DNA of 64,000 bases from NCBI RefSeq assembly GCF_001279695.1, contig NZ_LGDD01000335.1:9756-73755 (forward strand), written 5' to 3'. Shown here piece by piece: positions 3,469 through 62,790 of the stretch (positions are counted from its first letter, which is position 1; every line of letters starts with the position of its first letter). A model generated the notes under the pieces. That model was not told the DNA's origin, did not search any database, and worked only from the letters and a program-made list of their open reading frames with translations. The position numbers and the translations under genes were made by a program. The DNA is from Streptomyces sp. WM6378. GTDB lineage: Bacteria > Actinomycetota > Actinomycetes > Streptomycetales > Streptomycetaceae.

Positions 3469-4185
3469 ATGAGCAGCGACAACGGCAGGGGCAGCGGGGT
3501 CCGGGAGACCAGGACGGGCAGCGGCCCGCTCACAGCGGTCGGCGGGCGGGGCGGACCGGCCGGGAGCGAGGACGCGTACGACATCTTCCGGGCACTGCGC
3601 GACGAGGACGACCAGCAGGTCGGCGAGGTGACCGCCGCGGGCGCCGCCTGGCTGTCGTCCGCGGCCACCCACGCGCGCAGCACCCTCTCCCTCTGGGAGG
3701 CCCGGCCGACCGCCCCCGGCGTGCTGCCCTGCGGCACGGTCTTCGACGTCGTGAACGTGCCGTCGATCTTCGGGCGCCGGATGCTCGACCGGCTGTGGGC
3801 CGAGGGGCCGGGCTCCGGGCCGGTCGCGATCCACCGCGGGCGCATGCTGCTGTTCGCCGCGCCCGGCACCGCGCAGCGGCTGCCCTCGCTCCTGGCGTGG
3901 GAGGAGTGGCACGGCGCCGAGGTCCCGGTCCCGCCGCTGCTCTGTCACGGCGCGGGCGACGCCGTCACCGTCCCGGCCCTGGTCCGCCCGCAGCGGGAGA
4001 ACACGGGGGCGGCCCGCTGGCTGGTGGCCCCCGACACCCGCCGCCCCTGGCTGCCGGGGCCCGACGTACTGCTGTGGGCCTGTGTCCGGGCGGCCAAGAA
4101 CAAGCCCACGGACCTTCCCCGGATATCGATTTTTCCTCGCGCCGATCAGGATGCTAATGTCTACGACGTCAGCAGGCGCCGCTAG
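3469..4185 (+). CDS. Bifunctional DNA primase/polymerase-like domain protein
   Basis: 238 residues. The central segment (W..RP.AP.VLPCGT.FDV, then GPVA..RGRMLLFAAPG) follows the pattern I know from Prim-Pol N-terminal domains of Streptomyces proteins annotated as bifunctional DNA primase/polymerase, but the usual zinc and acidic active-site pattern is not clear here. Activity is therefore an inference. The C-terminal 20 residues are encoded over the promoter of tRNA-Lys. The stop codon TAG at 4183-4185 lies inside the tRNA gene, an overlap of 10 bases. The ribosome site in front of the ATG is weak, so the start is uncertain. Confidence 0.65.
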   Translation: MSSDNGRGSGVRETRTGSGPLTAVGGRGGPAGSEDAYDIFRALRDEDDQQVGEVTAAGAAWLSSAATHARSTLSLWEARPTAPGVLPCGTVFDVVNVPSIFGRRMLDRLWAEGPGSGPVAIHRGRMLLFAAPGTAQRLPSLLAWEEWHGAEVPVPPLLCHGAGDAVTVPALVRPQRENTGAARWLVAPDTRRPWLPGPDVLLWACVRAAKNKPTDLPRISIFPRADQDANVYDVSRRR

Positions 4186-4249
4186 CTCAGTTGGTTAGAG
4201 CAGCTGACTCTTAATCAGCGGGTCCGGGGTTCGAGTCCCTGGCGGCGCA
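4176..4249 (+). tRNA. tRNA-Lys (CTT), copy 1
   Basis: A 74-base cloverleaf. Acceptor arms GCGCCGC and GCGGCGC pair fully, the D arm is TAGCTCAGTTGGTTAGAGC, the anticodon loop CTCTTAA gives anticodon CTT (reads AAG), the T loop has TTCGAGT, and the discriminator is A. The 3' CCA is not encoded. The first 10 bases overlap the 3' end of the upstream coding gene. A hairpin terminator follows directly. Identical copies lie at 17650 and 27533. Confidence 0.97.
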
Positions 4250-4255
4250 CAGACG

Positions 4256-17649: not shown

Positions 17650-17723
17650 GCGCCGCTAGCTCAGTTGGTTAGAGCAGCTGACTCTTAATCAGCGGGTCCG
17701 GGGTTCGAGTCCCTGGCGGCGCA
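17650..17723 (+). tRNA. tRNA-Lys (CTT), copy 2
   Basis: Identical in sequence to the copy at 4176, with the same CAG preceding it and nearly the same terminator following. A likely promoter is TCAGAA, 18 bases, TAGTAT immediately upstream. Anticodon CTT; no encoded CCA. Confidence 0.97.
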
Positions 17724-17729
17724 CAGACG

Positions 17730-27532: not shown

Positions 27533-27606
27533 GCGCCGCTAGCTCAGTTGGTTAGAGCAGCTGACTCTTAATCAGCGGGTCCGGGGTTCGAGTCCCTGGC
27601 GGCGCA
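27533..27606 (+). tRNA. tRNA-Lys (CTT), copy 3
   Basis: Identical to the copies at 4176 and 17650, again preceded by GTCAGCAG. The likely promoter is TCAAAA, 18 bases, TAAAGT. The following sequence differs from copies 1 and 2, with its own terminator. Confidence 0.97.
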
Positions 27607-27613
27607 CGCACCA

Positions 27614-49711: not shown

Positions 49712-49848
49712 CACCGGTATCCCTGTGCGCACGGGCGCAGGGTAGGTGCCGCCGCCACAACTCACCAGGCCCGCAACGTGACCGACTCGACCTACCAGGG
49801 CCGGAAGCGCCCTCCGCCGGGCCCCCGTACAGCAGTACGGTGTCCCTC

Positions 49849-50868
49849 ATGCGCCCCGACACGCCTGCCGATCACACTGCCGAAGCCGAGCGTCTGCTGC
49901 GCACCGCGGCGCAGTACCCGGAGGACCACGAGCCCCTGCTGCTACAGGCCGCGGCCCACCTGGAACTCGCCGGCGACCGCCCGAAGGCGACCACGCTCTA
50001 CGACCGCCTGCTGGCCTCGAAGGTGGACCACCCCCACCTGGTGAAGGCGTTCAAGGCCGCGAACCTGTGGGAGTACGGCCACGAGCCGGAGGCCCGCGCC
50101 ATCATCGAGGGCATCCGGGCGGCGGCCCCGCTGGACCCGGCGGCGTGGGAGATCGTCGCCGAGACGCTGGAGGCCCACGACGAACTGGACCTGGCCCACG
50201 CCTCCCTGACAACAGCATTGACGCTGCTGGGAGTTGGAGAGGAGGCGGTGGACATGACAGGAATCCCGTACAGCACGCAGTCATTGCTGACGACTCGTCA
50301 CCGGGTGCGCCGCCTGCTGGCCCTGCCCCACGACACGTGGGACACCCTGGCCGACGAGCTGCACACGGCGCCGATCACCCTGGACGAACTCCACGACCCG
50401 AAGCGCCTGTGGTCCCTGGGCTCGGAGGACCCGGCCGAGCTCCAGGCCGAACTGGCCCGCCTGCGAGCGGAGTTGGGCAGCTACCGGGCAGCCCTGTCCC
50501 GCCCGTTCCCGGTAGCGGTCCTGCACTGGCCGGAACCAGAATTGGACGAACTCCTGACGGCGTACCCGGAGCTCCAGTCCGAATACCCCACGCACGCGGC
50601 CCACTTGCTGGACATCGAGGCATCACTGCGCGAACTGGCGGCAGCAGGCACCCCGAACCTGGGCATCGTGACGGCAACGGTCCCCTCGTACGAGGCCTTC
50701 GCGGCATCGGAATCCTCGTCCCCGGCGAACGCGGACCTACTACCGCAGTACGCAACGACCCTGGCGGCCCGGGGCCGCGCGGTGGCGTGGCCGCCGGGGC
50801 GGGGGGCGGATTGCTGGTGCGGGTCGGGGGTCAACTATGGGGACTGCCATGGGGCCTCCGAAGTGTGA
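49849..50868 (+). CDS. TPR-like protein with C-terminal SEC-C zinc motif
   Basis: 339 residues. Helical repeats over the N-terminal half (AEAERLLRTAAQYPEDHEPLLLQAAAHLEL, quoted from AEAERLLRTAAQ; the pattern repeats around 60-115), and a C-terminal CWCGSGVNYGDCHG, the SEC-C zinc-binding motif. Binds protein partners; function unknown. The last ordinary high-GC gene before the island. Confidence 0.82.
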   Translation: MRPDTPADHTAEAERLLRTAAQYPEDHEPLLLQAAAHLELAGDRPKATTLYDRLLASKVDHPHLVKAFKAANLWEYGHEPEARAIIEGIRAAAPLDPAAWEIVAETLEAHDELDLAHASLTTALTLLGVGEEAVDMTGIPYSTQSLLTTRHRVRRLLALPHDTWDTLADELHTAPITLDELHDPKRLWSLGSEDPAELQAELARLRAELGSYRAALSRPFPVAVLHWPEPELDELLTAYPELQSEYPTHAAHLLDIEASLRELAAAGTPNLGIVTATVPSYEAFAASESSSPANADLLPQYATTLAARGRAVAWPPGRGADCWCGSGVNYGDCHGASEV

Positions 50869-50943
50869 GCATGGGCAAGTTCATTGCACTCATTGACGGC
50901 AGCAAGACCGTCAGGGAAACCGGGGTCAGAGTGGAGCGCACGC

Positions 50944-51864
50944 ATGGCACGGCTCGTCTTGCAACAGCCTGGCGAAATCTGCACGAACACAGACCTCTCG
51001 GAGCATTTGCTTCTCAGTCCAGAGGATGACTCTCAGCTGCAGTCCGTGCTCGGCTGGCTCGCCGACTTCCCCGTCGGTGAGATGTACACAGAAGCCATCG
51101 GTAATGCAGTCGACTACGTCCTGGACGGCGGTAGGACAGGACGGTTCGATCTGCTGTCACCTGAGGTTCACCCCGGCGAACGCGCTTCAGTCGGGGCAAA
51201 GTTGGAGTACGAGGTACTCCGGAGCTTCGGGCTGCCGAAGACTAAACCTCTCGACACCTTGATCAGCGATGTCCCAGTAGATATCAAGGCCACTGTCGGG
51301 GACAACTGGGCCATCCCCGCCGAGGCTCACTGCCAGCTGTGCATCTGCACACAGATACAGCTAAAGAAGAACCGTCACAGATCATGGCTAGTTCGCACGC
51401 ACCGGTCTTGGCTTTACCGAGGCCGGGGGAATAACGATGGGAAACGCGGGCTGGCTGTCCATGCCAGGGAAAACTGGAGCGTTCCTTTGTATGACTGGAC
51501 CGACCTGCCGGTGAACCCCTTGCGTTTCCTCACCGGTGACCAGGCCAGTCGAGTTCTGGCGAAGAAACCTGGCCAGATGAGACGCCTGCTGATGATGTTT
51601 GGCTACCTCGAAGGCAGAATTATTCCGCGTAGCGTCATCCTGACTGTCGGCGCAGGAAAGGATGATCCAACGCGTCGCGCTCGGGGCAAGGAGATCCGGG
51701 AGGCCGCAGCACGTGAAGGCCTTACCTTGCTGTGCGGCCAATGGGTCGAATCGCGCGAAGCAGCCGCAGCGCGCGGCATAGCTCTGGGGCCTGGAGACTG
51801 GATCGCCCTGCCGACCGACGACGGCCAGCATAATGAAAGGGATCCCGAAAGCGACTTGTTCTGA
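50944..51864 (+). CDS. NaeI-family type II restriction endonuclease
   Basis: 306 residues against 317 for NaeI. The active site is recognisable: LDTLISDVPVDIK gives Asp104, Asp113 and Lys115, with the same 9 and 2 residue spacing as NaeI Asp86-Asp95-Lys97, and Glu88 at the spacing of Glu70. ATG 50944 has GGAG seven bases upstream; a TTG at 50884 is a weaker start. NaeI cuts GCCGGC and needs two sites. The stop overlaps the vsr ATG by one base. The GC content is lower than in the flanks. Partner methyltransferase is likely the one at 52287. Confidence 0.85.
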   Translation: MARLVLQQPGEICTNTDLSEHLLLSPEDDSQLQSVLGWLADFPVGEMYTEAIGNAVDYVLDGGRTGRFDLLSPEVHPGERASVGAKLEYEVLRSFGLPKTKPLDTLISDVPVDIKATVGDNWAIPAEAHCQLCICTQIQLKKNRHRSWLVRTHRSWLYRGRGNNDGKRGLAVHARENWSVPLYDWTDLPVNPLRFLTGDQASRVLAKKPGQMRRLLMMFGYLEGRIIPRSVILTVGAGKDDPTRRARGKEIREAAAREGLTLLCGQWVESREAAAARGIALGPGDWIALPTDDGQHNERDPESDLF

Positions 51865-52352
51865 TGGAACCCGACACGCTGAGGAGCCGACAGGTGTCCG
51901 AGCCTGACGCCTGGACCCCACCGAAGGGGTCTTGGGCCTCATCTGCCGCAAGGCGCCGGAACATGCAGGCGATTCGCAGCCGTGATACCAAACCTGAGCG
52001 GCTGATCCGTCGCCTCGTCCACGCCAATGGGTTGCGCTACCGCGTAGCAGCCAAACCCTTGCCTGACCTTCGCCGGACGGCTGACATGGTCTTCCGCCCG
52101 GCGAAGGTCGCCGTCTTCATCGACGGCTGCTACTGGCACGGCTGCCCTGAGCACTACGTTCCACCCAAGACCAATTCCGGTTACTGGTCAGAGAAGGTGG
52201 CCCGGAATATGGCTCGCGACCGCGACACCGACCAACGGCTTAGCGCCGCCGGATGGCTAGTTCTTCGGTTCTGGGAGCATCAGGACTCAGACGACTGTGC
52301 TAAGGCGATCATCACAGCTGTCGAGAAGCGCCGCCGCCTTCTGCTCCGGTAG
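51864..52352 (+). CDS. vsr: Very short patch repair (Vsr) mismatch endonuclease
   Basis: 162 residues. Conserved NMQAIRSRDTKPE, catalytic Asp74 in RTADMVF and FIDGCYWHGCPEHY with His92, plus FWEHQ near the end, as in E. coli Vsr. Nicks beside T in T:G mismatches left by 5-methylcytosine deamination, so it protects the methyltransferase target sites. Starts one base inside the NaeI-family stop, so coupled. Its last 66 bases overlap the end of the convergent methyltransferase gene. Confidence 0.92.
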   Translation: MEPDTLRSRQVSEPDAWTPPKGSWASSAARRRNMQAIRSRDTKPERLIRRLVHANGLRYRVAAKPLPDLRRTADMVFRPAKVAVFIDGCYWHGCPEHYVPPKTNSGYWSEKVARNMARDRDTDQRLSAAGWLVLRFWEHQDSDDCAKAIITAVEKRRRLLLR

Positions 52353-53573
52353 CTGCCCCTCCCGGACAATCTCATCCCGCACTCGGTCGCGCTTTTCAGC
52401 AGCACGCAGGACCTTCGCAATTGCCATTCCGACTGCATGCGCAACCGGCGGAGGGAAGGCATTACCCACTTGCCGGTACTGCGCCGTCTTTCCTCCATCA
52501 AACTCCCAGTCCGCCGGGAACCCTTGAATGATCGCGGCCTGCTGGACAGTCAGCATAGGCCCCTCAGGGCGGAAAAGGTCGCGGTCGTAACTCTTCTTTC
52601 TCATGCCCGTCGCATGATCGTTGGCAACCCCCATGCCAGAGATGCCAAGTTGCCGCCAGGCGGTCTTAGCTCGACTTGGCCCGAGGTCCGCACCTCCGTG
52701 CTTCTTAGAACCTCCAACCAGAGTGGGCGCGATCCCGCCATCCTTCTTTGTCGAGGCTGCTTCCGACGCCTTGGTGATCCACGCATCAAGACGGCTCTGA
52801 GCTTCCGCCGCCAGCGTTCCACCCATGTCCAGGAATCGCTGATAGCGCTCCTTCATCGACTCCCCGAGCGCCTCGAATACACTGCAGGGCGCATCGTGAG
52901 TAGCTGTGGGCCATTCAAGTTCAAGGTCACCCAGCACGTCTCCCCGGATTGCGACCAAAATAGCGCGGGGACGGAGCTGAGGAACACCAAAATCGCTGGC
53001 TTCCAGAACTTCCCACTTGCACACCTTGTAACCAAATCCGAGGAAATTCTCTTCCACCCCGTCCTCTGGCCTCTTAGCCGTCCCTCCTTGAAGGCGCGCT
53101 TCGACATACGTGCGATAGTCTTCAAATTTGGCGTCTTTAATTCCCCGGACATTCTCAATCATCACCGCTCGGGGGTGAAGCTCGCCAACAAGCTCCAGCA
53201 TCCTCGGGAAAAGATCTCGCTCGTCGTCCTTCCCCAGCTGCTTACCCGCATGCGAGAAGGGGGGACACGGCACACCGCCAGCCAGCAGGTCGAGCTCGCC
53301 TGTGCGCAGTGGCCTACCCAGGAAACCGTGAGACTTCTTCAGCCCCGAGAGAGGCTTGAACTCGTTGACATCACCTTCGATGACATCGCAGAATTTCCTC
53401 TCCCATTCCCAACCACTCCTGTTATCAACATTATGCTGCAGAGTCTTTGCGGCATTCTTGTCAATCTCAACAAGCGCGAGATGTTTGAACCCGGCGCCGT
53501 GGAGCCCGATGGCTTGCCCGCCGGCGCCCGCGCAAATTTCGATCGACGTCAGCGTGCGTTCGCTGGAACCCAT
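52287..53573 (-). CDS. C5-cytosine DNA methyltransferase 1 (NaeI-type partner)
   Basis: 428 residues from the ATG at 53573 (GGAGGAG upstream). Motif I EICAGAGGQAIGL, motif IV GGVPCPPFS with catalytic Cys103, motif VI MIENVRG, motif VIII QLRPRA and motif X VGNAFPPPVAHAVG are present; the recognition region lies at about 240-340 and includes KKHGGADLGPSRAK. Transfers methyl from SAM to C5 of cytosine. GC is markedly low (28 of 60 bases at 53401-53460). A second related methyltransferase is encoded at 54507. Confidence 0.92.
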   Translation of the reverse strand: MGSSERTLTSIEICAGAGGQAIGLHGAGFKHLALVEIDKNAAKTLQHNVDNRSGWEWERKFCDVIEGDVNEFKPLSGLKKSHGFLGRPLRTGELDLLAGGVPCPPFSHAGKQLGKDDERDLFPRMLELVGELHPRAVMIENVRGIKDAKFEDYRTYVEARLQGGTAKRPEDGVEENFLGFGYKVCKWEVLEASDFGVPQLRPRAILVAIRGDVLGDLELEWPTATHDAPCSVFEALGESMKERYQRFLDMGGTLAAEAQSRLDAWITKASEAASTKKDGGIAPTLVGGSKKHGGADLGPSRAKTAWRQLGISGMGVANDHATGMRKKSYDRDLFRPEGPMLTVQQAAIIQGFPADWEFDGGKTAQYRQVGNAFPPPVAHAVGMAIAKVLRAAEKRDRVRDEIVREGQLPEQKAAALLDSCDDRLSTVV

Positions 53574-53587
53574 CGGCTCCTCCTGGT

Positions 53588-53624
53588 GTGGCAGATGCAG
53601 ACACGCAAGTGTCGCATCTGCCAC
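53588..53624. promoter_or_regulatory. Long inverted repeat upstream of methyltransferase 1
   Basis: GTGGCAGATGC (53588-53598) and GCATCTGCCAC (53614-53624) are exact reverse complements; inside them GACAC and GTGTC also pair, leaving a four-base loop. It lies 15 bases before the start codon, over or next to the ribosome site, so it can act as an operator in DNA or as a hairpin in the mRNA. Shares the core GCAAGTG with the palindrome at 54426. Confidence 0.75.
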
Positions 53625-53665
53625 CGACAGACTCACGATGCACGCCCTAGCACACCTGACAACAG

Positions 53666-54412
53666 TCAGCTCTCAAGCAGCTTGCGGAGATCACTCTTCA
53701 CTTCATCCCGCACGACCGCCGGAAGCTGACGGTACAGGGCCCAGGCCTTCTCGGCGGGGCTCAGTGGGCGCACGTCACCAGTCATCCAGGCCAGCAGGTC
53801 CTTCTTGTGCCGCAGGGGCAGCTCCTTCACCCGGTCCCAGACCTGCTCACGGTTCATCTGGGCGCCAGTCAGATGCCTAACCGTCTCGTTGCACCGTGCG
53901 CACTCCGTAATCAGATCCTCCGCGTTTGCCGCACTGCCCGACTTGTGCGGGCTCACGTGCCCGAGCGTGAGCCGGGCGCGCGAACCGGGATCATCCGGAT
54001 ACTCCTCCGCCGCGGCAACTCCACATCGCCTGCACATGTGCCCGTCCCGCTCATAGACAGAGCGACGCGTCCGAGCGCTGATCTGGCGGAGCCCTGCAGC
54101 CTTGTGCTCCTTTTCCCACACAGGCTGCCCGATCTTTTCCAGGCAGAGCTCATCAGGCTGGAGGCTCGGCTTATCCCGGTATGTTCTGATATCCCATCCC
54201 GCCGGGCGAAGATCGCGCATCCGCCGGTCCACCTGCTCGGCCCCCTGAATGGCGGCCCTCAGCCGCTGCTTCGAGAAGACCCCACCCTCACCAATCTCAT
54301 CACGGAGCCAGAGAGCCACCCTGACCCGGGTTCCGAGCGCCTCGTTACGCCAATCCTGATCCGACTCCGACACGGTTCCACCAATCGAAAATCCGTTTGA
54401 GATGTAGTTCAT
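53666..54412 (-). CDS. HNH endonuclease with N-terminal specificity-like domain (HNH-A)
   Basis: 248 residues. N-terminal region (about 30-100; VALWLRDEIGEGGVFSK, QVDRRMRDLRPAGWDIRT, GQPVWE) has a winged-helix-like pattern. HNH domain about 118-180 with CRRC (127-130), His152 in TLGHVSPHKSG, Asn163 and CARCN (171-175), so zinc and catalytic residues are intact. Likely cuts DNA; may be the restriction partner of one of the methyltransferases. A paralogue at 58893 has lost the His. Start ATG 54412 lacks a clear ribosome site; a GTG at 54373 is possible. Confidence 0.83.
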   Translation of the reverse strand: MNYISNGFSIGGTVSESDQDWRNEALGTRVRVALWLRDEIGEGGVFSKQRLRAAIQGAEQVDRRMRDLRPAGWDIRTYRDKPSLQPDELCLEKIGQPVWEKEHKAAGLRQISARTRRSVYERDGHMCRRCGVAAAEEYPDDPGSRARLTLGHVSPHKSGSAANAEDLITECARCNETVRHLTGAQMNREQVWDRVKELPLRHKKDLLAWMTGDVRPLSPAEKAWALYRQLPAVVRDEVKSDLRKLLES

Positions 54413-54425
54413 TCGCGGGATGACT

Positions 54426-54467
54426 CTAGCTTGCCGCCACTTGCCACGGCAAGTGGCGGCAAGCTAG
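54426..54467. promoter_or_regulatory. Perfect 20-base-arm palindrome between divergent HNH-A and methyltransferase 2
   Basis: Left arm 54426-54445 (starts CTAGCTTGCCGCCACTTG) and right arm 54448-54467 are exact reverse complements with a two-base centre. It lies 14 bases before the HNH-A start and 40 bases before the methyltransferase 2 start. A candidate two-way operator or overlapping promoter switch. Confidence 0.9.
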
Positions 54468-54506
54468 GTGATCTGTCATCCAGAGCCCCGCAACAGGAGA
54501 TACGCA

Positions 54507-55553
54507 ATGCACAGCGACCCCGGCATAGCCCCTACGCCAACAGCACCCACGTGCGTCGAGGTCTGCGCAGGGGGCGGGGGCCAAGCCCTGGGGCTGGAGC
54601 GGGCCGGCTTCGAGCACGCTTCACTGATCGAGCTTGACCAGGACGCCGTGAGAACCCTGCGCACCAACCGCCCCGAGTGGAACGTTCTTCATGCGGATGT
54701 CCGCCGCCTCACACCCAGCGACCTACACGGCAGCGGGCAGGAGGTCTCCCTGCTCTCTGCCGGCGTGCCGTGTCCGCCGTTCTCCCTGGCCGGCAAGCAA
54801 CTGGGGGCGGACGACGAACGAGATCTCTTCCCTGCCGTCCTGGAACTCGCCGCAGGCCTCCATCCCCGCGCCGTCATGATCGAGAACGTTAAGGGCATCC
54901 TGCAGACCAAGTTCACCGCCTATCGTGCGGCCGTCCTCCAGAGACTCAAAGAGCTTGGGTATGTGCCGGTCTGGCGCCTTCTCCGATCGTGTGACTACGG
55001 CGTACCCCAACTGCGCCCCCGGGCCGTTCTGATCGCTCTGCGACCTGAGCTATTGGCTCACTTCAGCTGGCCGGACCCCACCGCCTGCCCGGACACCGCA
55101 CTGAACGTGGGCCACGTTCTCTATCAATCGATGGCTTCACACGGCTGGGAACTGGCTCGCGAGTGGGCAGACGCAGCCTCTCGCATCGCTCCCACGCTCT
55201 GCGGAGGTTCCCGCAAACACGGCGGCCCTGATCTAGGACCCTCACGGGCCCGTCAGGCCTGGGCGAAACTCGGTGTCAATGGCTCAAGTCTGGCCGACGC
55301 CCCGCCTCAGCCGGGAGCCGTAATGCCGGTGAGACTTACCGTGGCTCAGATTGCACTGCTGCAGGGGTTTCCCGGTGACTGGACCTTCGTGGGCCGCAAG
55401 ACATCGGCATACCGTCAGGTCGGTAACGCCTTCCCGCCCCCAGTCGCTGAAGCAGTGGGCCGCCGCATCGCTGCAGCGCTGACCCAGGCCGACCGCGCAA
55501 CGGACGGCTGTGCTCAGACAGCGCTGCCCCAGCAGACTCTCTGGCCAGCATGA
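54507..55553 (+). CDS. C5-cytosine DNA methyltransferase 2
   Basis: 348 residues from the ATG at 54507 (GGAG seven bases upstream; an ATG at 54468 is inside the palindrome edge and rejected). Motif I EVCAGGGGQALGL, motif IV AGVPCPPFS with Cys89, motif VI MIENVKG, motif VIII QLRPRA, recognition region with RKHGGPDLGPSRARQ, motif X VGNAFPPPVAEAVG. Shorter than methyltransferase 1 but clearly the same subfamily, so the target sequences may be related. Convergent with the SNF2 gene (19-base gap). Confidence 0.92.
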   Translation: MHSDPGIAPTPTAPTCVEVCAGGGGQALGLERAGFEHASLIELDQDAVRTLRTNRPEWNVLHADVRRLTPSDLHGSGQEVSLLSAGVPCPPFSLAGKQLGADDERDLFPAVLELAAGLHPRAVMIENVKGILQTKFTAYRAAVLQRLKELGYVPVWRLLRSCDYGVPQLRPRAVLIALRPELLAHFSWPDPTACPDTALNVGHVLYQSMASHGWELAREWADAASRIAPTLCGGSRKHGGPDLGPSRARQAWAKLGVNGSSLADAPPQPGAVMPVRLTVAQIALLQGFPGDWTFVGRKTSAYRQVGNAFPPPVAEAVGRRIAAALTQADRATDGCAQTALPQQTLWPA

Positions 55554-55572
55554 CGCGGCCGCATGAGTGACT

Positions 55573-57405
55573 TCACCGGGCGGCGACAGCATCGACATGC
55601 CTAAGCAGCGCCCGAACATCCGCCATATCCATACCGGCTGCGACGGACGGTTCCTCCTCAAGATCGGCCAGCTGCTGAACGGACGGATCGTCCAGAATCT
55701 GCCCCATAAACTCCAACTTCTCTTCGAGCCGCAAAGCCACTACTTCGTCGATCGTCCCCTCGACGGCTAGCACCGTAACCCTTGTTTCCGTGCCTGGAGC
55801 GAGGCCAAGCCGGTGAATACGGTCGAGGGACTGCAAGAATCGGCCAGCCATAAAGTCACGGTCCACGTACACCGCATCGTGACAGGCATGGTGCAGGCTG
55901 ATCCCTTCACCAAGAGTGGCCGGGTTAGAGAGCAGAACATGGCAATTTGGATCCTCGCGGAAGCGCCGAAGCTGTTCCTCACGATCAGGGGTGCCACCAT
56001 GCACCACGGCAGGCTGGTAAGCAGCGAACATGCTCTCCATGGTGGTCAGACTCCGGACAAAGGTCGTCCAGACCAGGGTCTTCCGGCCCATCGCAGAATT
56101 CTCTGCAACGATGTTCAACGCTTCCTTGTATTTCGGGGACAGTTCATGCTCAGGAAGGCTTCGGAGCAGAGAAAACAGCGATTCGTTCTCCGGAACCTCA
56201 AGTGGCGGAACTCGATACGAAAGTGGTTCGTAACGGCTTCCGCCCTCCGCCAGGAGGGCGGGGCTGGTCGCAGCCATCAGCAGCCGAAGCATCGCCTTGC
56301 CGAGGGCATCAAAGTCCGCCCGCGAGGCCTCTGCCCGTGCTGTGAACCTGCCGACCAAGGCGTCATACACCTCCCGGTGCAGCGGCGGCATCTGGAGATA
56401 CCTGATCCGCGTCTGGAACGGCGGAAGGCCTAGTTCATTCTTGGTCGTACGGGTGAAGAGCGGCCGGAGCACTGTGCTCGCGTACGCCAGATCCCCACCT
56501 GCGACCGCCTGTGTTACGACACGGCGGCCATGGCCTGGCCACACAAAAGACAGGAGGTTCTCAAGGTCCCGTGCTCCGTTCGGTGCTGGCGTGCCGGTGA
56601 GGATGAGCCGACGTCGGCTGAGCGGCCCAAGAGCCATACAGGCACTCCCATAGATTCCCCGGGCACCGAGCTTCATCCGGTGCGCCTCATCGAGAATTAC
56701 CATGGAAGGTGCTGCGCGGAGCCAGGAGGCAAGCGCGGAAAGCGACTTATCCAGCCGCTCGTAGTTCACGATCAGAATCTCAGCCTGCGGGTCCGGAGCC
56801 TTCTCCATGACCACTGTGTGCGGGCGCCGTTTGAAGCAGTGCTCACTCTCGAACAGCCATGACTCATAGGCAGATTTCGGGCTGACCACCAGCAGCCGCC
56901 GAACATCCCCTCGCTCCCGCATTGCGGTGTAAACCGCGAGGCCTACCCTGGTCTTGCCGGCGCCCGGGACGCTGAAGTTGGCCCCGTGCTGCAACGAGAG
57001 CAGTTGTGCGACGTCCCGTAGCTGAAAACTCGTAAGATTCGCGCACCACTCGGCGCCAAGAGCCGCCGCAACCGCGGCATCGTCCCAGGCCGGTACCACG
57101 CCAGGCTCCTGCTGGAGACACTGCTCGGCCTGGTCAGCATCGTCGAGGACGCTGCCGACAAGTTCGGCAAGCTCGTCCTCCCATTCGACTGAATCCGGGT
57201 GTGGCCAGTCCGCGAGGACATCGATGCTCACCAGAAGGTCGTCGAGCGCCAGCTCCATGGACAGCGGCCCGCGCTGGCCACCCGAAGGAAAGCGGGCGGC
57301 GAGCCTGGCCAGCTCGCTCCGGTACGGTTCAGCCACACGCAGCACAGCTTTGGTCCTGGACACATCGAGCCCAAGCCGCAGGGACGGCTCTGTAGTCTCA
57401 GTCAT
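55573..57405 (-). CDS. SNF2-family DEAD/DEAH-box helicase/translocase
   Basis: 610 residues. After an unrecognised N-terminal 120 residues: Q-like TSFQLRDVAQLL, Walker A SVPGAGKT (145-152), VSPKSAYESW, DEAH (239-242), motif III LTGTPAPN (from 270), then a C-terminal RecA-like half with VHGGTPDREEQLRRF, LSNPATLGEGISLHHA and motif VI QSLDRIHRLG. Translocates on double-stranded DNA using ATP; no nuclease is fused. ATG 57405 overlaps the ParB-like stop (ATGA), so the two work together. Confidence 0.88.
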   Translation of the reverse strand: MTETTEPSLRLGLDVSRTKAVLRVAEPYRSELARLAARFPSGGQRGPLSMELALDDLLVSIDVLADWPHPDSVEWEDELAELVGSVLDDADQAEQCLQQEPGVVPAWDDAAVAAALGAEWCANLTSFQLRDVAQLLSLQHGANFSVPGAGKTRVGLAVYTAMRERGDVRRLLVVSPKSAYESWLFESEHCFKRRPHTVVMEKAPDPQAEILIVNYERLDKSLSALASWLRAAPSMVILDEAHRMKLGARGIYGSACMALGPLSRRRLILTGTPAPNGARDLENLLSFVWPGHGRRVVTQAVAGGDLAYASTVLRPLFTRTTKNELGLPPFQTRIRYLQMPPLHREVYDALVGRFTARAEASRADFDALGKAMLRLLMAATSPALLAEGGSRYEPLSYRVPPLEVPENESLFSLLRSLPEHELSPKYKEALNIVAENSAMGRKTLVWTTFVRSLTTMESMFAAYQPAVVHGGTPDREEQLRRFREDPNCHVLLSNPATLGEGISLHHACHDAVYVDRDFMAGRFLQSLDRIHRLGLAPGTETRVTVLAVEGTIDEVVALRLEEKLEFMGQILDDPSVQQLADLEEEPSVAAGMDMADVRALLRHVDAVAAR

Positions 57406-58814
57406 GCCTTCTCCTCGCGTACGGCTTCGAGCAGCCAGGCAACGCCGTCACCGTGCACTTCAATGCTCTGAGCGGCCGTGCGGCCGAGCTTGATCAGGGC
57501 CGCCTTGAGCTTGAGCACGGACTCGTCGAAGCCCTCCTCGTCAAGGCTCCGCGAGCCCCGCGCCAGCACGATGTCCGTGATGCACTGCTCGATGTCTTGG
57601 CAGGCATCATTGAGGCGGTCAGGGGCGGCCTGCTTGCGCTTACGTACTCGGGCGTCCTTTCCCGCCGGCTCCAGAGCGTCCTCAACCACCCTCTTCGCCT
57701 CGCCGAACACCCCAGCTGCCAGAACCTGTGCATCAGGAAGGGCGTCAGACGAGCGCACCACGGCTTTGGCCTGCAGAAGGGCATCCGTGAACGCACGAGC
57801 GGCAGCTACCTGCGGTTCGTCGGACTTTACCTCCCGGTTAATGCCAGGAATCCTGCGCCCCGAGGCAGCGGTTGGAGCGGTCTTCAGGTGCTCCGGAAGC
57901 CGGTGCTCCAGGTAACGGGTCCGGAAGTCGGCCTCGATGAGACGCACGTCAGTCTTGGAGAATTCAAGCACGATGGCCGCCAGACGGTTCTCCTTAAGGA
58001 GTTCAGCCTTCTGCCGGTCTCCCCTAGATTCCTTCCCATACGCACGGTGCACTTCGCGGAGCTTCTCCTGAGCGTCCTCAAAATCCAGCAGGCGGAGCTG
58101 CGTCTGACCGCTCTTGGAACGCTCCGTGAGGTCACGGAGGCAGGAGAGCACCCACAGATCCTGCTCAGCAGTCGTCGTCCGGATCCGGAACTCTCTTGCA
58201 ATATCGGCCAGTTGTCGTCCCATCGACAATTGTTCCTCGATCGTGAGGAGTCGGTTGATGTAGGAATACTCACGCCGAGTGTCGTGCCTCAACTGCAGTG
58301 AGAGTTCAACAGCGTTGATGTCGGCCCAGGTACACGAGTCCGGCAGTACACCCACCCGGATATTCGCAATACCGAGTTCTCGCAGTGCTACAGCGCGCGT
58401 GTTGCCGTTGACGAGAACGCCATCACGCGTGATGAGTCCTGGCTCATTCTGGCGGAAATCCCTGAGGCTCTCCTTGAGTTCCTCAAAGTCTTTGTCCCGC
58501 CTGGACGGGTCAGACGGTTCTGCCTGGAGCAGGTAGCGCAGGTAGTCCTGGCTTTCGTCACACCAAGGGTCTCCACCCAGCAGTTGGTCACGCTTCGTGT
58601 CGAAGCTGCGCTGGGCGCGGATTCGATGCGTACCCGGGTTGTAGTAGAGAGACTCCAGGGGCATGTCAATAACCTGGACAACCCGAGGCTGCTGGCGCCA
58701 CTCGACTGTCAGGGTTTCCCGAATTCCAGCCCCATCCGATGCCTCCTTGAGTCGTTGCTCGACTCGGTCCCGGTTCTCGGCGGCGAGGGGCGGCCAACCA
58801 AAATCGCTGCTCAC
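57402..58814 (-). CDS. ParB/Srx-like protein of a defence module
   Basis: 470 residues from the GTG at 58814 (AAGGAGAAC upstream). A ParB-like core: IDMPLESLYYNPGTHR (about 49-64), GLITRDGVLVNGNTRAVALRELG (quoted from DGVLVNGNTRAVALREL, 131-147) equivalent to the ParB nucleotide-binding box, and an HTH-like region (about 185-225; EEQLSMGRQLADIAREFRI). The last 200 residues are mostly helical and unrecognised. Not next to parA and not near an origin, so not a chromosome partition ParB; probably a DNA-sliding or sensing subunit that works with SNF2. Confidence 0.78.
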   Translation of the reverse strand: MSSDFGWPPLAAENRDRVEQRLKEASDGAGIRETLTVEWRQQPRVVQVIDMPLESLYYNPGTHRIRAQRSFDTKRDQLLGGDPWCDESQDYLRYLLQAEPSDPSRRDKDFEELKESLRDFRQNEPGLITRDGVLVNGNTRAVALRELGIANIRVGVLPDSCTWADINAVELSLQLRHDTRREYSYINRLLTIEEQLSMGRQLADIAREFRIRTTTAEQDLWVLSCLRDLTERSKSGQTQLRLLDFEDAQEKLREVHRAYGKESRGDRQKAELLKENRLAAIVLEFSKTDVRLIEADFRTRYLEHRLPEHLKTAPTAASGRRIPGINREVKSDEPQVAAARAFTDALLQAKAVVRSSDALPDAQVLAAGVFGEAKRVVEDALEPAGKDARVRKRKQAAPDRLNDACQDIEQCITDIVLARGSRSLDEEGFDESVLKLKAALIKLGRTAAQSIEVHGDGVAWLLEAVREEKA

Positions 58815-58853
58815 GTGCGTTCTCCTTCAGCCTGGAAACGTAATGAGGTGCAT

Positions 58854-58882
58854 GGCGGGGCCGCCGAGGAAGCAGCCCCGCC
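58854..58882 (-). terminator. Hairpin between HNH-B and ParB-like genes
   Basis: Perfect eight-base arms GGCGGGGC (58854-58861) and GCCCCGCC (58875-58882). It could attenuate transcription from HNH-B into the ParB-like/SNF2 pair and set their ratio. Confidence 0.6.
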
Positions 58883-58892
58883 CGCTCGGGGG

Positions 58893-59576
58893 TCAGACGG
58901 GAGGCAACCCGAGAGCCTCACGGACCTTGGCCCTGGAGTCCGCCGGCAGCGTCCGGAATGCGGCCCACAAGAGCTCGACCGCGCCGAATCCCCGCTTGTC
59001 CTCCGAGACCCACCCGGTGAGGAGGTTCCGCTCGATGACTCCGAGCCCGGCAACCCCGTTCAGTACCGTGGCCAGATCGGCCGACTGGCCACGCCCACCG
59101 ACACGGCAGCGGTTGCACTCCGCCACAAGCTCAATCGCCTCGCCTCCAGCCGGCTGCTTGACCACGCGGCGGGCGATGTCCAGCTGAGCCGATTCGTACG
59201 AGTCTGCATAGATTTCACCAGGGCCGATTCCGCAAGACCGGCAGAGGTGGCCGTCCCTGGCCAGCACGTCCCGCCGCTGCGTCTGCGTGATCGAGGAACC
59301 GGACTTGGTCGCCTTGCCAGGCTCCCAGACCGGTACTCCCTGCTTCACGAACCGCTGCTCGTGCTGACCAAGCGTCAGGTCTTCGCGGTGTGTATCAATC
59401 TGCCAGCCGTGATCACGCAGATCGCGGACCCGGCGGTCAGCCTGAACTACCCCGGGGAAGGCCGCCTTCACGTCCTCCTTGGTGAAGACGCTGCCCTCCC
59501 CGACAACGGTCACGAGCCACAGAGCCGCGCGCTTCATCGTGCCGTACTTCGTATCCGTCCACGACGGCAGAACCAT
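58893..59576 (-). CDS. HNH-like protein lacking catalytic His (HNH-B)
   Basis: 227 residues from the ATG at 59576. Paralogue of HNH-A: AALWLVTVVGEGSVFTK, QADRRVRDLRDHGWQIDT and GVPVWEPG align with its N-terminal domain. The zinc cysteines CRSC (112-115) and CNRC (154-157) are kept, but the segment that carries the catalytic His in HNH-A (LTLGHVSPH) reads LDIARRVVK here. So it probably binds DNA without cutting. First gene of the minus-strand module HNH-B, ParB-like, SNF2. Confidence 0.78.
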   Translation of the reverse strand: MVLPSWTDTKYGTMKRAALWLVTVVGEGSVFTKEDVKAAFPGVVQADRRVRDLRDHGWQIDTHREDLTLGQHEQRFVKQGVPVWEPGKATKSGSSITQTQRRDVLARDGHLCRSCGIGPGEIYADSYESAQLDIARRVVKQPAGGEAIELVAECNRCRVGGRGQSADLATVLNGVAGLGVIERNLLTGWVSEDKRGFGAVELLWAAFRTLPADSRAKVREALGLPPV

Positions 59577-59811
59577 CACGTTCCCCTTACGTCAGGTACC
59601 CGGGAGCCTGGGACGGAGTCCATGGATTCCGCTACCAAGAGCAGCTCCGGCAGTCCCCCAACCATTGCGCGGCCGACTGCAATTGCGCCAGGTTCTGGTG
59701 AGTTTCGAGGGGAGATGGAAAACCTCCGTGGCTTCCAGTGCGGTTGGCGGCGTGCGCACAATCGAAGGCACCCACGTCCCTCATTCCGATTCCGCACACC
59801 TAGGAGCCGCA

Positions 59812-60612
59812 GTGCAGCAAGAAGGACCGCAACCGCACTGGAAGCCTCTGCCTGGCGATCTCAGCGAAGACCGACGCCAGTTCGTGAGCTGCCTACGGGA
59901 GATCCGGGAGTGCAGCCCGCGGACACAGGCTGACATCGCACACGACGCGAGCCAGGCGGCGACCACGCTCTCCAACCACCTGAACGGAGGGCGGGTGCCT
60001 GAGCCCCAGCTCCTCATCAGCTTCTACAAGGTGGTGGAACAGGATGCCTTAGCCATAGGGGTTCAACTCCCCTACTCGGTCAGCTTCTTACTGTGCCTGC
60101 GGTCCCGCGCGTTGATGAAGCACTGCAAGTGCTGTCCGACTGGCTTTCCGGTCAGCACACCAGATCCCAGGTCGCCGGCTTTGTCTTCTGCCCGTCACGT
60201 GTGGCACAGACGGCGGCTCCGCAACGCCGCTCGCAAACAGAAGACTTCTTCGTTCCCTGCGCAGAGAAGTGCGCCGGTCCCCCTTCCTGAAGGGGACCGG
60301 CACCCCAGACGTCTTACCGACGAGGCATGGACGGATCTGGAGACGCTGACGCGCTACCTCGCCGAGGGACGGGACCGAGATGCCTCCGTTGTCCTGTGGG
60401 GTGCTGCTACAACCCTGCCTGCCGGTGATGTCCCGAGAGCCGTCGCGGCCTGCCGCTCAGCAGGCCTTGACCAAGAGGCAGAGACCATTCTCATCAACGC
60501 CGGCAAGCGTGACCCGCAGACTGTGCTGGACATTGCGGCCGCCTTCCACAACAGCCTCCGCTTCGAGGACGCCGGGCTGATACTCGCTGCCGCGTCCCGC
60601 GCCACCCAATAG
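59812..60612 (+). CDS. Helix-turn-helix (Xre-like) protein
   Basis: 266 residues from the GTG at 59812 (GGAG six bases upstream). N-terminal HTH (about 20-65): FVSCLREIRECSPRTQADIA then QAATTLSNHLNGGRVP. A basic stretch with CKCC follows, then a C-terminal helical segment (YLAEGRDRDASVVLWGAA and ACRSAGLDQEAETILINA) found in many Streptomyces HTH proteins. Divergent from HNH-B with a 235-base gap, so it may regulate the island. The frame is open upstream but the similarity starts here. Confidence 0.75.
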   Translation: MQQEGPQPHWKPLPGDLSEDRRQFVSCLREIRECSPRTQADIAHDASQAATTLSNHLNGGRVPEPQLLISFYKVVEQDALAIGVQLPYSVSFLLCLRSRALMKHCKCCPTGFPVSTPDPRSPALSSARHVWHRRRLRNAARKQKTSSFPAQRSAPVPLPEGDRHPRRLTDEAWTDLETLTRYLAEGRDRDASVVLWGAATTLPAGDVPRAVAACRSAGLDQEAETILINAGKRDPQTVLDIAAAFHNSLRFEDAGLILAAASRATQ

Positions 60613-60736: not shown

Positions 60737-61042
60737 ATGGCGAAGGTTCCCGCAACTGCTATCGCGGCCGGCGGGCTCATCGGGGGGTATGGGGTTGCCC
60801 GGTGGACCAAGAAGCGGCCCCTTGGTGGGGTGGCGCTGGCCGCGGCCGGGGCGCTTGCCGCTCGGCAGTGGCAGCAGGCGGCCGGGACCAAGGCTGCCGT
60901 CGGGCTCACCACTGCCTACGTCGCCGCCTTCGCCGGGTCTCACCCGCTGGCCAAGAAGGTCGGCGCCTGGCCCTCCGTTTTCGGCGTGGCCGGAGCCGTC
61001 GCCGTCGCCTCCTGGGCTGTCACCCGTAATTCCGCCGAGTAG
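60737..61042 (+). CDS. Small hydrophobic protein of unknown function
   Basis: 101 residues with GGAGG seven bases upstream of the ATG. Three weakly hydrophobic Ala/Gly-rich segments with a basic loop (ARWTKKRPLGG) suggest a membrane protein. No family recognised. High GC resumes here, so it marks the right border of the island. Confidence 0.72.
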   Translation: MAKVPATAIAAGGLIGGYGVARWTKKRPLGGVALAAAGALAARQWQQAAGTKAAVGLTTAYVAAFAGSHPLAKKVGAWPSVFGVAGAVAVASWAVTRNSAE

Positions 61043-61207: not shown

Positions 61208-62548
61208 CTACCCGCCCAGCGCGTGCGACACCGTATAGATCAGCAGGCCCGCCAGGGCTCCGACCACCGTGCCGTTGATGCGGATGAACTGCAGGTCGCG
61301 GCCGATGTTCGCCTCGATCTTGCGGGACGTGTCGTTCGCGTCCCACGAGGCCACCGTGTCGGTGATGAGTGATGTGATCTCGGCACGGTAGGTCGAGACC
61401 ACATACGCCGCCGCGTCCTCCAGCCAGCCGTCCACCTTGGACTGGAGGCGGGGGTCCGTGGACAGGCGGGTGCCCAGGGAGAGCAGGGACGCCCTCGCGC
61501 GCAGGCGCAGTTCGCTGTGGTCGTCCTCCGCCGCCGCGATGATCATTGACCGTACGGAGGACCACGCCGAGGCGATGATGTCCTGGACCTCGGGGCGGGC
61601 CAGTATCTCCGACTTGAAGCGCTCCACCCTGGTCCGGGTCTCGGAGTCCGACTGGAGGTCGGCCGCGAAGTCGGCCAGGAAGCGGTCCAGGGCGCCGCGC
61701 GCCGGGTGGGCCGGCATGTCGCGCATCTCGGTTATGAAACGCAGCAGCTCCTTGTAGACGCGCTCGCCCACCTTGCGGTCCACGAAGCGCGGGGTCCAGC
61801 CGGGGGCGCCGCCCTGCACCGCGTCCATCACCGAGTCCCCGTGCAGCACCAGCCAGTCGTGGGCCCGTACGCACACCAGGTCCACGGCCTTGCGGTGGCT
61901 GCCGTCGGCGACGATCTTCTCCAGCGCCTTGCCGAGGCCCGGCGCGATTTCCGCCGCGTCCGCCCGGCGCGTGATCGCCTCGCCCACCACCGCCTGGACG
62001 TCGGAGTCCCTGAGCACCGTCAGCGCGCCGCGCAGGGCCGTGGCCAGCTCCGATGTGACCCGGTCCGCGTGCTCGGGCTCCGCGAGCCAGGTGCCCAGGC
62101 GGCGGCCGATGCCCAGGGCCTGGAGGCGGGTGCGTACGACGGCCGCCGACAGGAAGTTCTCGCCCACGAACGAGCCGAGCGTGGCACCGAACTGGTCCTT
62201 CTTGTTCTGGATGATCGCCGTGTGCGGGATGGGCAGGCCCAGCGGGCGGCGGAACAGGGCCGTCACCGCGAACCAGTCCGCCAGCGCACCCACCATGCCC
62301 GCCTCGGCCGCCGCCGCGACATATCCCGCCCACGCCCCCGCGCCCGAGCGGTCCGCCCAGGTCGCGAGGCCGAAGACCACTGCGACCACGAGCAGCAGGC
62401 CGGTCGCCATCGCCTTCATGCGGCGCACGCCCCGGCGCTTCTCCTCGTCCGCCGCCGTGTAGGCGAAGGGGGACGAGCGGGGCGTGCGCGCGGCCGTGTC
62501 CGCCTCGACCGCCACCTCGGCGTCGGGCCCCGATCTCCTGCGTTCCAT
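61208..62548 (-). CDS. DUF445 membrane protein
   Basis: 446 residues from the ATG at 62548 (GGTGGAG upstream). An N-terminal span (MATGLLLVVAVVFGLATW), then GMVGALADWFAVTALFRRPLGLPIPHTAII, quoted as ADWFAVTALFRRPLG, which is the DUF445 hallmark, a long helical middle part and a C-terminal span near INGTVVGALAGLLIYTV. Function unknown; some members are linked to cell-shape or envelope roles. Confidence 0.87.
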   Translation of the reverse strand: MERRRSGPDAEVAVEADTAARTPRSSPFAYTAADEEKRRGVRRMKAMATGLLLVVAVVFGLATWADRSGAGAWAGYVAAAAEAGMVGALADWFAVTALFRRPLGLPIPHTAIIQNKKDQFGATLGSFVGENFLSAAVVRTRLQALGIGRRLGTWLAEPEHADRVTSELATALRGALTVLRDSDVQAVVGEAITRRADAAEIAPGLGKALEKIVADGSHRKAVDLVCVRAHDWLVLHGDSVMDAVQGGAPGWTPRFVDRKVGERVYKELLRFITEMRDMPAHPARGALDRFLADFAADLQSDSETRTRVERFKSEILARPEVQDIIASAWSSVRSMIIAAAEDDHSELRLRARASLLSLGTRLSTDPRLQSKVDGWLEDAAAYVVSTYRAEITSLITDTVASWDANDTSRKIEANIGRDLQFIRINGTVVGALAGLLIYTVSHALGG

Positions 62549-62790
62549 TCGCTCCACCTGTCCGTGCGCGTCCGCACGCCCCGAACGGCTTTCTGCCGCT
62601 CGTCCCGCCCGGTCGGCCCGTGCGGCCATGACCCGTCCGCCGCTCGTCCCGTCCGGCCGTTACCGCGGCCACCATCCGTTCCGTACGACCTCTACATGAA
62701 GTACTTACGGCGCGCACGTTCAGTTCCCGTGCGCCCGTGCGACCACTCGTTCGCGTGGCCCCGCGGGCCTTCGCTCCGTACATTCGGATC

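Follow-up and report, generated by a model that had tools for sequence, protein, structure and literature searches.

Do the nine genes packed at positions 50,944 to 60,612 of a 64,000-nucleotide stretch of Streptomyces sp. WM6378 DNA (contig NZ_LGDD01000335.1; hereafter the window) make up several restriction-modification systems, or one? A preliminary description, made from the sequence alone, had sorted them into a unit of a NaeI-type enzyme, Vsr and a C5 methyltransferase (M1) and a second unit of another methyltransferase (M2), two HNH proteins (HNH1 and HNH2), a ParB-like protein (ParBL) and an SNF2-family ATPase. The first grouping stands and the second has to be redrawn: relatives join HNH2, ParBL and SNF2 with an M1-type methyltransferase and Vsr, and M2 is confined to loci that also have HNH1 (8 of the 80 relatives and the window). 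We read the locus as one modular DNA-methylation-based restriction system with an optional second cassette, and assign this reading a probability of about 0.45.

The comparison used the best 80 of 90 confirmed named ParBL loci. SNF2 lies no more than 120 bp from ParBL in all 80, and in 79 an HNH gene lies upstream in the same orientation. Distances within this row co-vary (Spearman coefficients of 0.87 for ParBL-SNF2 and 0.59 for HNH-ParBL, to be compared with 0.39 for ParBL and the SEC-C flank in 21 loci). A C5 methyltransferase is present in 73 and Vsr in 74 of the 80 loci, and both also adjoin the block in Nocardia, Amycolatopsis and others. HNH2, ParBL and SNF2 are a conserved core, arranged as an operon-like row, with a C5 methyltransferase and Vsr alongside. 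With 48 Vsr matches in 61 genomes, a chance Vsr is expected in about 0.2% of 21-kb stretches; of the 61 genomes, the 12 that carry ParBL all have one within 6 kb. A nuclease gene accompanies the block in 71 of the 80 loci (NgoMIV-like in 11), and a GHKL ATPase is encoded nearby in 20; across all relatives the nuclease may also be of DUF3883 or MutH-like type. The features of the window are as follows.

49840..50868, plus strand: SEC-C/TPR protein (PF02810), left flank, chromosomal anchor gene
50944..51864, plus strand: NaeI-type restriction endonuclease (PF09126), exchangeable nuclease slot; ATG start at 50944 in a frame open from 50884
51864..52352, plus strand: Vsr mismatch endonuclease (TIGR00632)
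52287..53573, minus strand: C5 DNA methyltransferase M1 (PF00145); open frame to 53636, tail overlapping Vsr
53666..54412, minus strand: HNH1, winged helix and HNH domain with the histidine kept (PF01844 below cut-off; PADLOC REase_II)
54426..54467: perfect inverted repeat between the divergent HNH1 and M2, 20-bp arms (54426-54445/54448-54467), 2-nt centre
54507..55553, plus strand: C5 DNA methyltransferase M2 (PF00145); open frame from 54468
55573..57405, minus strand: SNF2-family ATPase (PF00176), core block
57402..58814, minus strand: ParB-like protein ParBL, core block, from its AlphaFold2 model and fold matches in the PDB
58893..59579, minus strand: HNH2, winged helix and zinc HNH-like domain lacking the HNH histidine, core block
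59730..59846: perfect inverted repeat in the divergent HNH2/HTH region, 17-bp arms (59730-59746/59830-59846), 83 nt apart
about 59812..60612, plus strand: helix-turn-helix (HTH)-type protein, in divergent orientation to HNH2; uncertain start, with GTG at either 59812 or 59884
60737..61042, plus strand: g60737, right-flank gene

All nine genes lie where they had first been placed and in the same order, their families being assigned by hidden Markov models in scans of ten window proteins (HNH2, ParBL and the HTH-type protein on a weaker basis). The original observation of nine genes with nuclease, methyltransferase, helicase or DNA-binding motifs is confirmed; the ninth gene matches no nuclease.

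The NaeI-type protein scores 113.7 bits against PF09126 (cut-off 25, E 1e-32) and retains its PD-(D/E)XK catalytic residues. Across 47 NaeI-like rows, the window included, the D of LDTLI and the lysine of DxK are kept in 47 and the DxK aspartate in 46. Vsr reaches 133.5 bits with TIGR00632 (cut-off 97.85), and M1 (PF00145, E 1e-51) falls among Vsr-adjacent methyltransferases, most of which fall into two clusters (40 and 29 members) with NaeI-like and NgoMIV-like neighbours in each. In the whole genome the PF00145 cut-off is exceeded three times, by M1, M2 and a match elsewhere that spans only model positions 2-97. The recognition site of NaeI is GCCGGC. According to the available text of PMC4081073, NgoMIV cleaves G/CCGGC; the NaeI site is printed there as GCC|CCG, which we take for a misprint. 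Because NaeI-like and NgoMIV-like enzymes adjoin the same methyltransferase clades, the M1 mark is probably GCCGGC. This sequence is likely the common mark behind the nuclease exchange, and cutting at GCCGGC is predicted for the window enzyme.

HNH2 matches no HNH model and was recognized through its 37% identity to HNH1. In 110 HNH2 core rows (the 80 loci and 30 others including the window, several from the same genomes) the HNH histidine is always replaced by R, K or S, and the four cysteines of a Cys4 zinc site are always kept. The two HNH proteins initially noted are both present, but they are unequal, the one next to ParBL lacking the histidine. A fold search with HNH2 returned weak matches to the HNH domains of Cap5 and EcoKMcrA, and PADLOC 2023 gave no match at E up to 0.01. 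HNH2 is apparently a restriction-enzyme relative that has lost catalysis, and we propose it as the site reader.

A parallel arrangement consists of a protein X followed by ParBL, SNF2 and DUF3883, with a C5 methyltransferase and often Vsr. Protein X matches the restriction endonuclease model REase_II PDLC03501 at E 3e-19, and an X paralogue beside a methyltransferase matches it at 2e-137. The ExK motif is kept in 120 of 120 listed members of the paralogue family; protein X has IQK in its place in six of six, and in a seventh by eye. Against the PDB, protein X had one match at E 1.9, which was not used. A restriction endonuclease family represented by L150:2854-3717 has 3066 relatives found and an HDY...ELKGC motif and is matched by a PADLOC REase_II model; three members tested had no Pfam match.

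The AlphaFold2 model of ParBL (predicted local distance difference test score, pLDDT, 88.8) shows a ParB-CTPase fold, an HTH and a long helical C-terminus, and its closest structures in the PDB are KorB, Noc and ParB. Residues G137, N138 and R140 of the GxxR P motif (GNxR) are invariant in 74 of 74 sequences. ParBL has no meaningful Pfam match and only one weak methyltransferase-model match in PADLOC 2023 (E 1.5e-4); two matches to PDB sequences were taken as spurious, the fold being taken from the model, and kinship with the DUF262 protein of GmrSD was rejected after no DUF262 match at E up to 1. We consider ParBL a ParB-CTPase-fold protein with an HTH, predicted from its model to bind nucleoside triphosphates (NTPs) and to form a sliding clamp. 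SNF2 (PF00176, E 1e-17) carries GAGKT, DEAH, LTGTP and QSLDRIHR.

Diverged blocks with a methyltransferase were found on alphaproteobacterial and Lactiplantibacillus plasmids and in a Streptococcus phage, with DUF3883 directly 3' of SNF2 in plasmid versions. Streptococcus phage Javan191 carries a BanI/DpnII-like gene, ParBL, SNF2, a NOV_C nuclease and a C5 methyltransferase. The phage reader matches the BanI and DpnII Pfam models; its 24 PDB matches, nearly all TALE repeats, were rejected. A Lactiplantibacillus plantarum plasmid (L174) combines a C5 methyltransferase, ParBL, SNF2, a MutH-type nuclease and Vsr; no reader gene was seen on it, the upstream reader slot holding, by eye, a transposase-like fragment. 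The Paracoccus block has an N6/N4-type methyltransferase (PF01555) and a NOV_C nuclease. Among viral contigs none carried the A1 type and one (L173) the A4 type. The arrangement thus crosses three phyla, the ParBL-SNF2 pair staying constant as readers, nucleases and methyltransferases vary. Vsr was considered as the core nuclease and is disfavoured, with no Vsr match in the Paracoccus version (14.5 kb) and its N6/N4-type methyltransferase; on the same grounds Vsr appears to go with C5 methylation. No Vsr match was obtained either in the 7.8 kb of the Streptococcus phage, which has a C5 methyltransferase.

HNH1 and M2 stand apart from the core. HNH1 stays below the PF01844 cut-off (18.4 against 21.4) and matches PADLOC REase_II at E 2e-6; the HNH histidine is kept in 9 of 11 rows of such extra, HNH1-type proteins. 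M2 (PF00145, E 1e-55) belongs to a clade of nine members, from the window and the eight loci mentioned above, each with an extra HNH and more than 700 bp from Vsr. The pairing is not absolute, because one locus (L051) has an extra HNH without M2. We infer from this distribution that HNH1-M2 is an optional, self-contained Type II pair inserted beside the main system; the 20-bp inverted repeat between the two genes is a possible operator.

From gene linkage, motif-residue loss and model folds we propose the following course. M1 would mark self, probably at GCCGGC, and Vsr would repair the T:G mismatches that arise from 5-methylcytosine deamination. HNH2, its catalysis lost, would only read unmarked sites, at which ParBL would be loaded as an NTP-gated clamp, linking recognition to the SNF2 translocase, which in turn would move along invading DNA. 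Cutting would fall to the resident nuclease: here NaeI and perhaps HNH1, elsewhere the DUF3883, NgoMIV-like or MutH-like enzyme. The HTH gene would regulate the operon. Put more boldly, a catalysis-dead Type II enzyme serving as a methylation-sensitive reader would load a ParB-like NTP-gated clamp that would spread and bring in an SNF2 motor, with the cutter as a plug-in. That this amounts to a new restriction class, with catalysis lost independently in an HNH family and in another restriction endonuclease family, is a tentative suggestion that we hold with some doubt. If it is true, chromosome-segregation clamp chemistry serves self/non-self discrimination. Should our reading of the locus be correct, dead restriction enzymes have been reused as sensors and the ParB clamp fold has gained a defence role beside a motor. 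How one unmethylated site gives rise to a long-range signal, and why nucleases are exchanged so readily at one methylation mark, would become testable, and genes in about one-sixth of the sampled Streptomyces genomes (34/199), mostly named transcriptional regulators in databases, would be accounted for. The reading would also be relevant to barriers against DNA transfer in actinomycetes that make antibiotics.

Several observations weigh against the single modular system. M-ParBL distances correlate weakly (Spearman 0.20), four full-flank loci carry the block without M or Vsr, nine of the 80 loci have no recognised nuclease, and HNH activity is uncertain to judge from sequence. The first two, together with the other systems held by the insertion site described below, would suit a plain defence island, made of two ordinary Type II systems (NaeI-Vsr-M1 and HNH1-M2) and a third system, HNH2-ParBL-SNF2, that is unrelated to them and happens to cluster there. 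We find this rather unlikely given how regularly the C5 methyltransferase and Vsr stand beside the block, in the 80 loci as well as in Nocardia, Amycolatopsis and others, and given that a methyltransferase still adjoins the diverged block on plasmids and in the phage.

ParBL might instead be a KorB-like regulator, the block silencing or remodelling unmarked DNA without cutting. Its closest solved folds, the missing histidine of HNH2 and the five loci with M and Vsr and no recognised nuclease all fit, as does the name transcriptional regulator borne by most of its listed named relatives; yet 71 loci do have a nuclease gene, plasmid versions place DUF3883 immediately after SNF2 and a separate HTH-type gene already heads the operon, so that we regard this as unlikely. 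Very unlikely, in our judgement, is that ParBL is itself the nuclease, a nickase of the ParB/sulfiredoxin superfamily guided by HNH2. ParB-superfamily proteins in defence loci have been proposed as nucleases (PMC10853773 and PMC12839542, as far as their available text goes), and such activity would account for loci without another nuclease; the model, however, is that of a ParB with an HTH, and its conserved residues agree with GxxR, the nucleotide-binding motif described in the accessible part of PMC12704722.

The island is also set apart by composition and position. Its G+C content is 62.5% (50884-60612), compared with a mean of 71.7% (standard deviation 0.8%, minimum 70.0%) in 165 sliding stretches of equal length to the left; the two 60-base samples first offered were weak evidence, but the claim of low G+C content holds. 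Of 199 Streptomyces genomes, 158 have the SEC-C gene and 34 have ParBL. The fetched stretch contains both flanking genes, SEC-C and g60737, at 15 of the 80 loci and at least one of them at 28. Among 20 SEC-C loci from genomes without a ParBL match, two sites are nearly empty: in L156 about 275 bp separate SEC-C from the start of a relative of the next right-flank gene (frame 61208-62629), and in L154 the distance from SEC-C to g60737 is 1.3 kb. These sites and the unequal distribution of SEC-C and ParBL support the acquisition proposed in the preliminary description. Rather than the same genes at genome-mean G+C content in all species, the window order, mirrored in the fetched orientation and with both flanks, was found in L076 (S. 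aureoverticillatus) and L083 (S. aureocirculatus) but not in all species. Both carry three further regulator-type genes (clusters c6, XRE5 and DUF397) between the HTH gene and g60737. In a phylum-wide sample ParBL occurred in 3 of 396 genomes, all three Streptomyces, and is therefore rare outside this genus. An unlike Vsr (42-59% identity) was found at 8 of the 20 ParBL-negative sites, seven of them also with a C5-methyltransferase match, and no right-flank gene was found within 16 kb in nine (L157, L160-L164, L166, L167, L169). The SEC-C site is an acquisition hotspot in the chromosome, and its right border is not conserved everywhere. At the SEC-C site of L160, L161, L162, L163 and L164, another Vsr stands with two C5-methyltransferase matches, one weak (24-30% identity).

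Among known systems, CglI/NgoAVII resembles the locus in combining a DNA methyltransferase, a separate endonuclease and a helicase-like ATPase, with translocation proposed (available text of PMC5737866 and PMC4267653). Compared by description, the window has SNF2 rather than a DEAD-family ATPase, and in addition a ParB-like subunit, an apparently inactive reader and Vsr. The MORC/paraMORC operons (Iyer 2008), in the accessible portion of PMC2292703, unite in one neighbourhood a cytosine methylase, Vsr, an HNH or RE-fold nuclease and an SF2 helicase that either is of the SNF2 type or bears a DThhQXuRhFG domain; a search of that text counted zero occurrences of 'parb-like'. The window differs in its apparently inactive reader and in having no GHKL ATPase among the ten proteins (Pfam scan and clustering). 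Its NaeI-type protein agrees with the NaeI family in exceeding the Pfam cut-off and keeping DxK, and differs in being an interchangeable nuclease, one among several, that accompanies a larger block. ParBL shares the fold, HTH and GxxR P motif of ParB-CTPase-fold proteins, going by the part of PMC12704722 available, but is encoded beside SNF2 and a restriction-enzyme relative instead of ParA. DISARM, Zorya and Druantia show generic SNF2 and C5 methylase similarity only: SNF2 reaches 35.4 bits with DrmD (cut-off 610) and 19.2 with ZorD (cut-off 1500), the ten proteins include no other component of DISARM or Zorya, and only the methyltransferases match Dru models. The gene set was not found described in PADLOC 2023 or in the open-access literature searched, a body outside which most subscription papers lie. 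In our view the locus is a novel form of helicase-assisted restriction-modification, the nearest precedents found being CglI and, from the text at hand of PMC2292703, MORC/paraMORC.

The HTH-type protein matches HTH_31 below threshold (E 0.24), its relatives reaching 1e-4 and all remaining below the cut-off; its cluster, HTH10, is present in 61 of the 80 loci, and it is the probable regulator of the operon. Both large inverted repeats first noticed proved perfect. In the HNH2/HTH region, 10 shuffles gave inverted repeats of at most 9, compared with the 17-bp arms observed, and this repeat is a possible operator. Perfect inverted repeats of at least 12 occur in 9 of 81 such regions and in 2 of 810 shuffles; a common operator is not claimed. 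TGTCC-containing inverted repeats lie upstream of HNH2 in L109, L110, L112, L115, L116, L122 and L130 and are possible operators for the HTH gene.

Elsewhere in the window, three identical copies of tRNA-Lys(CTT) occur at 4176-4250, 17650-17724 and 27533-27607. Their flanks differ, save for 36 of 40 downstream bases common to the first two, and they look like ordinary duplicates.

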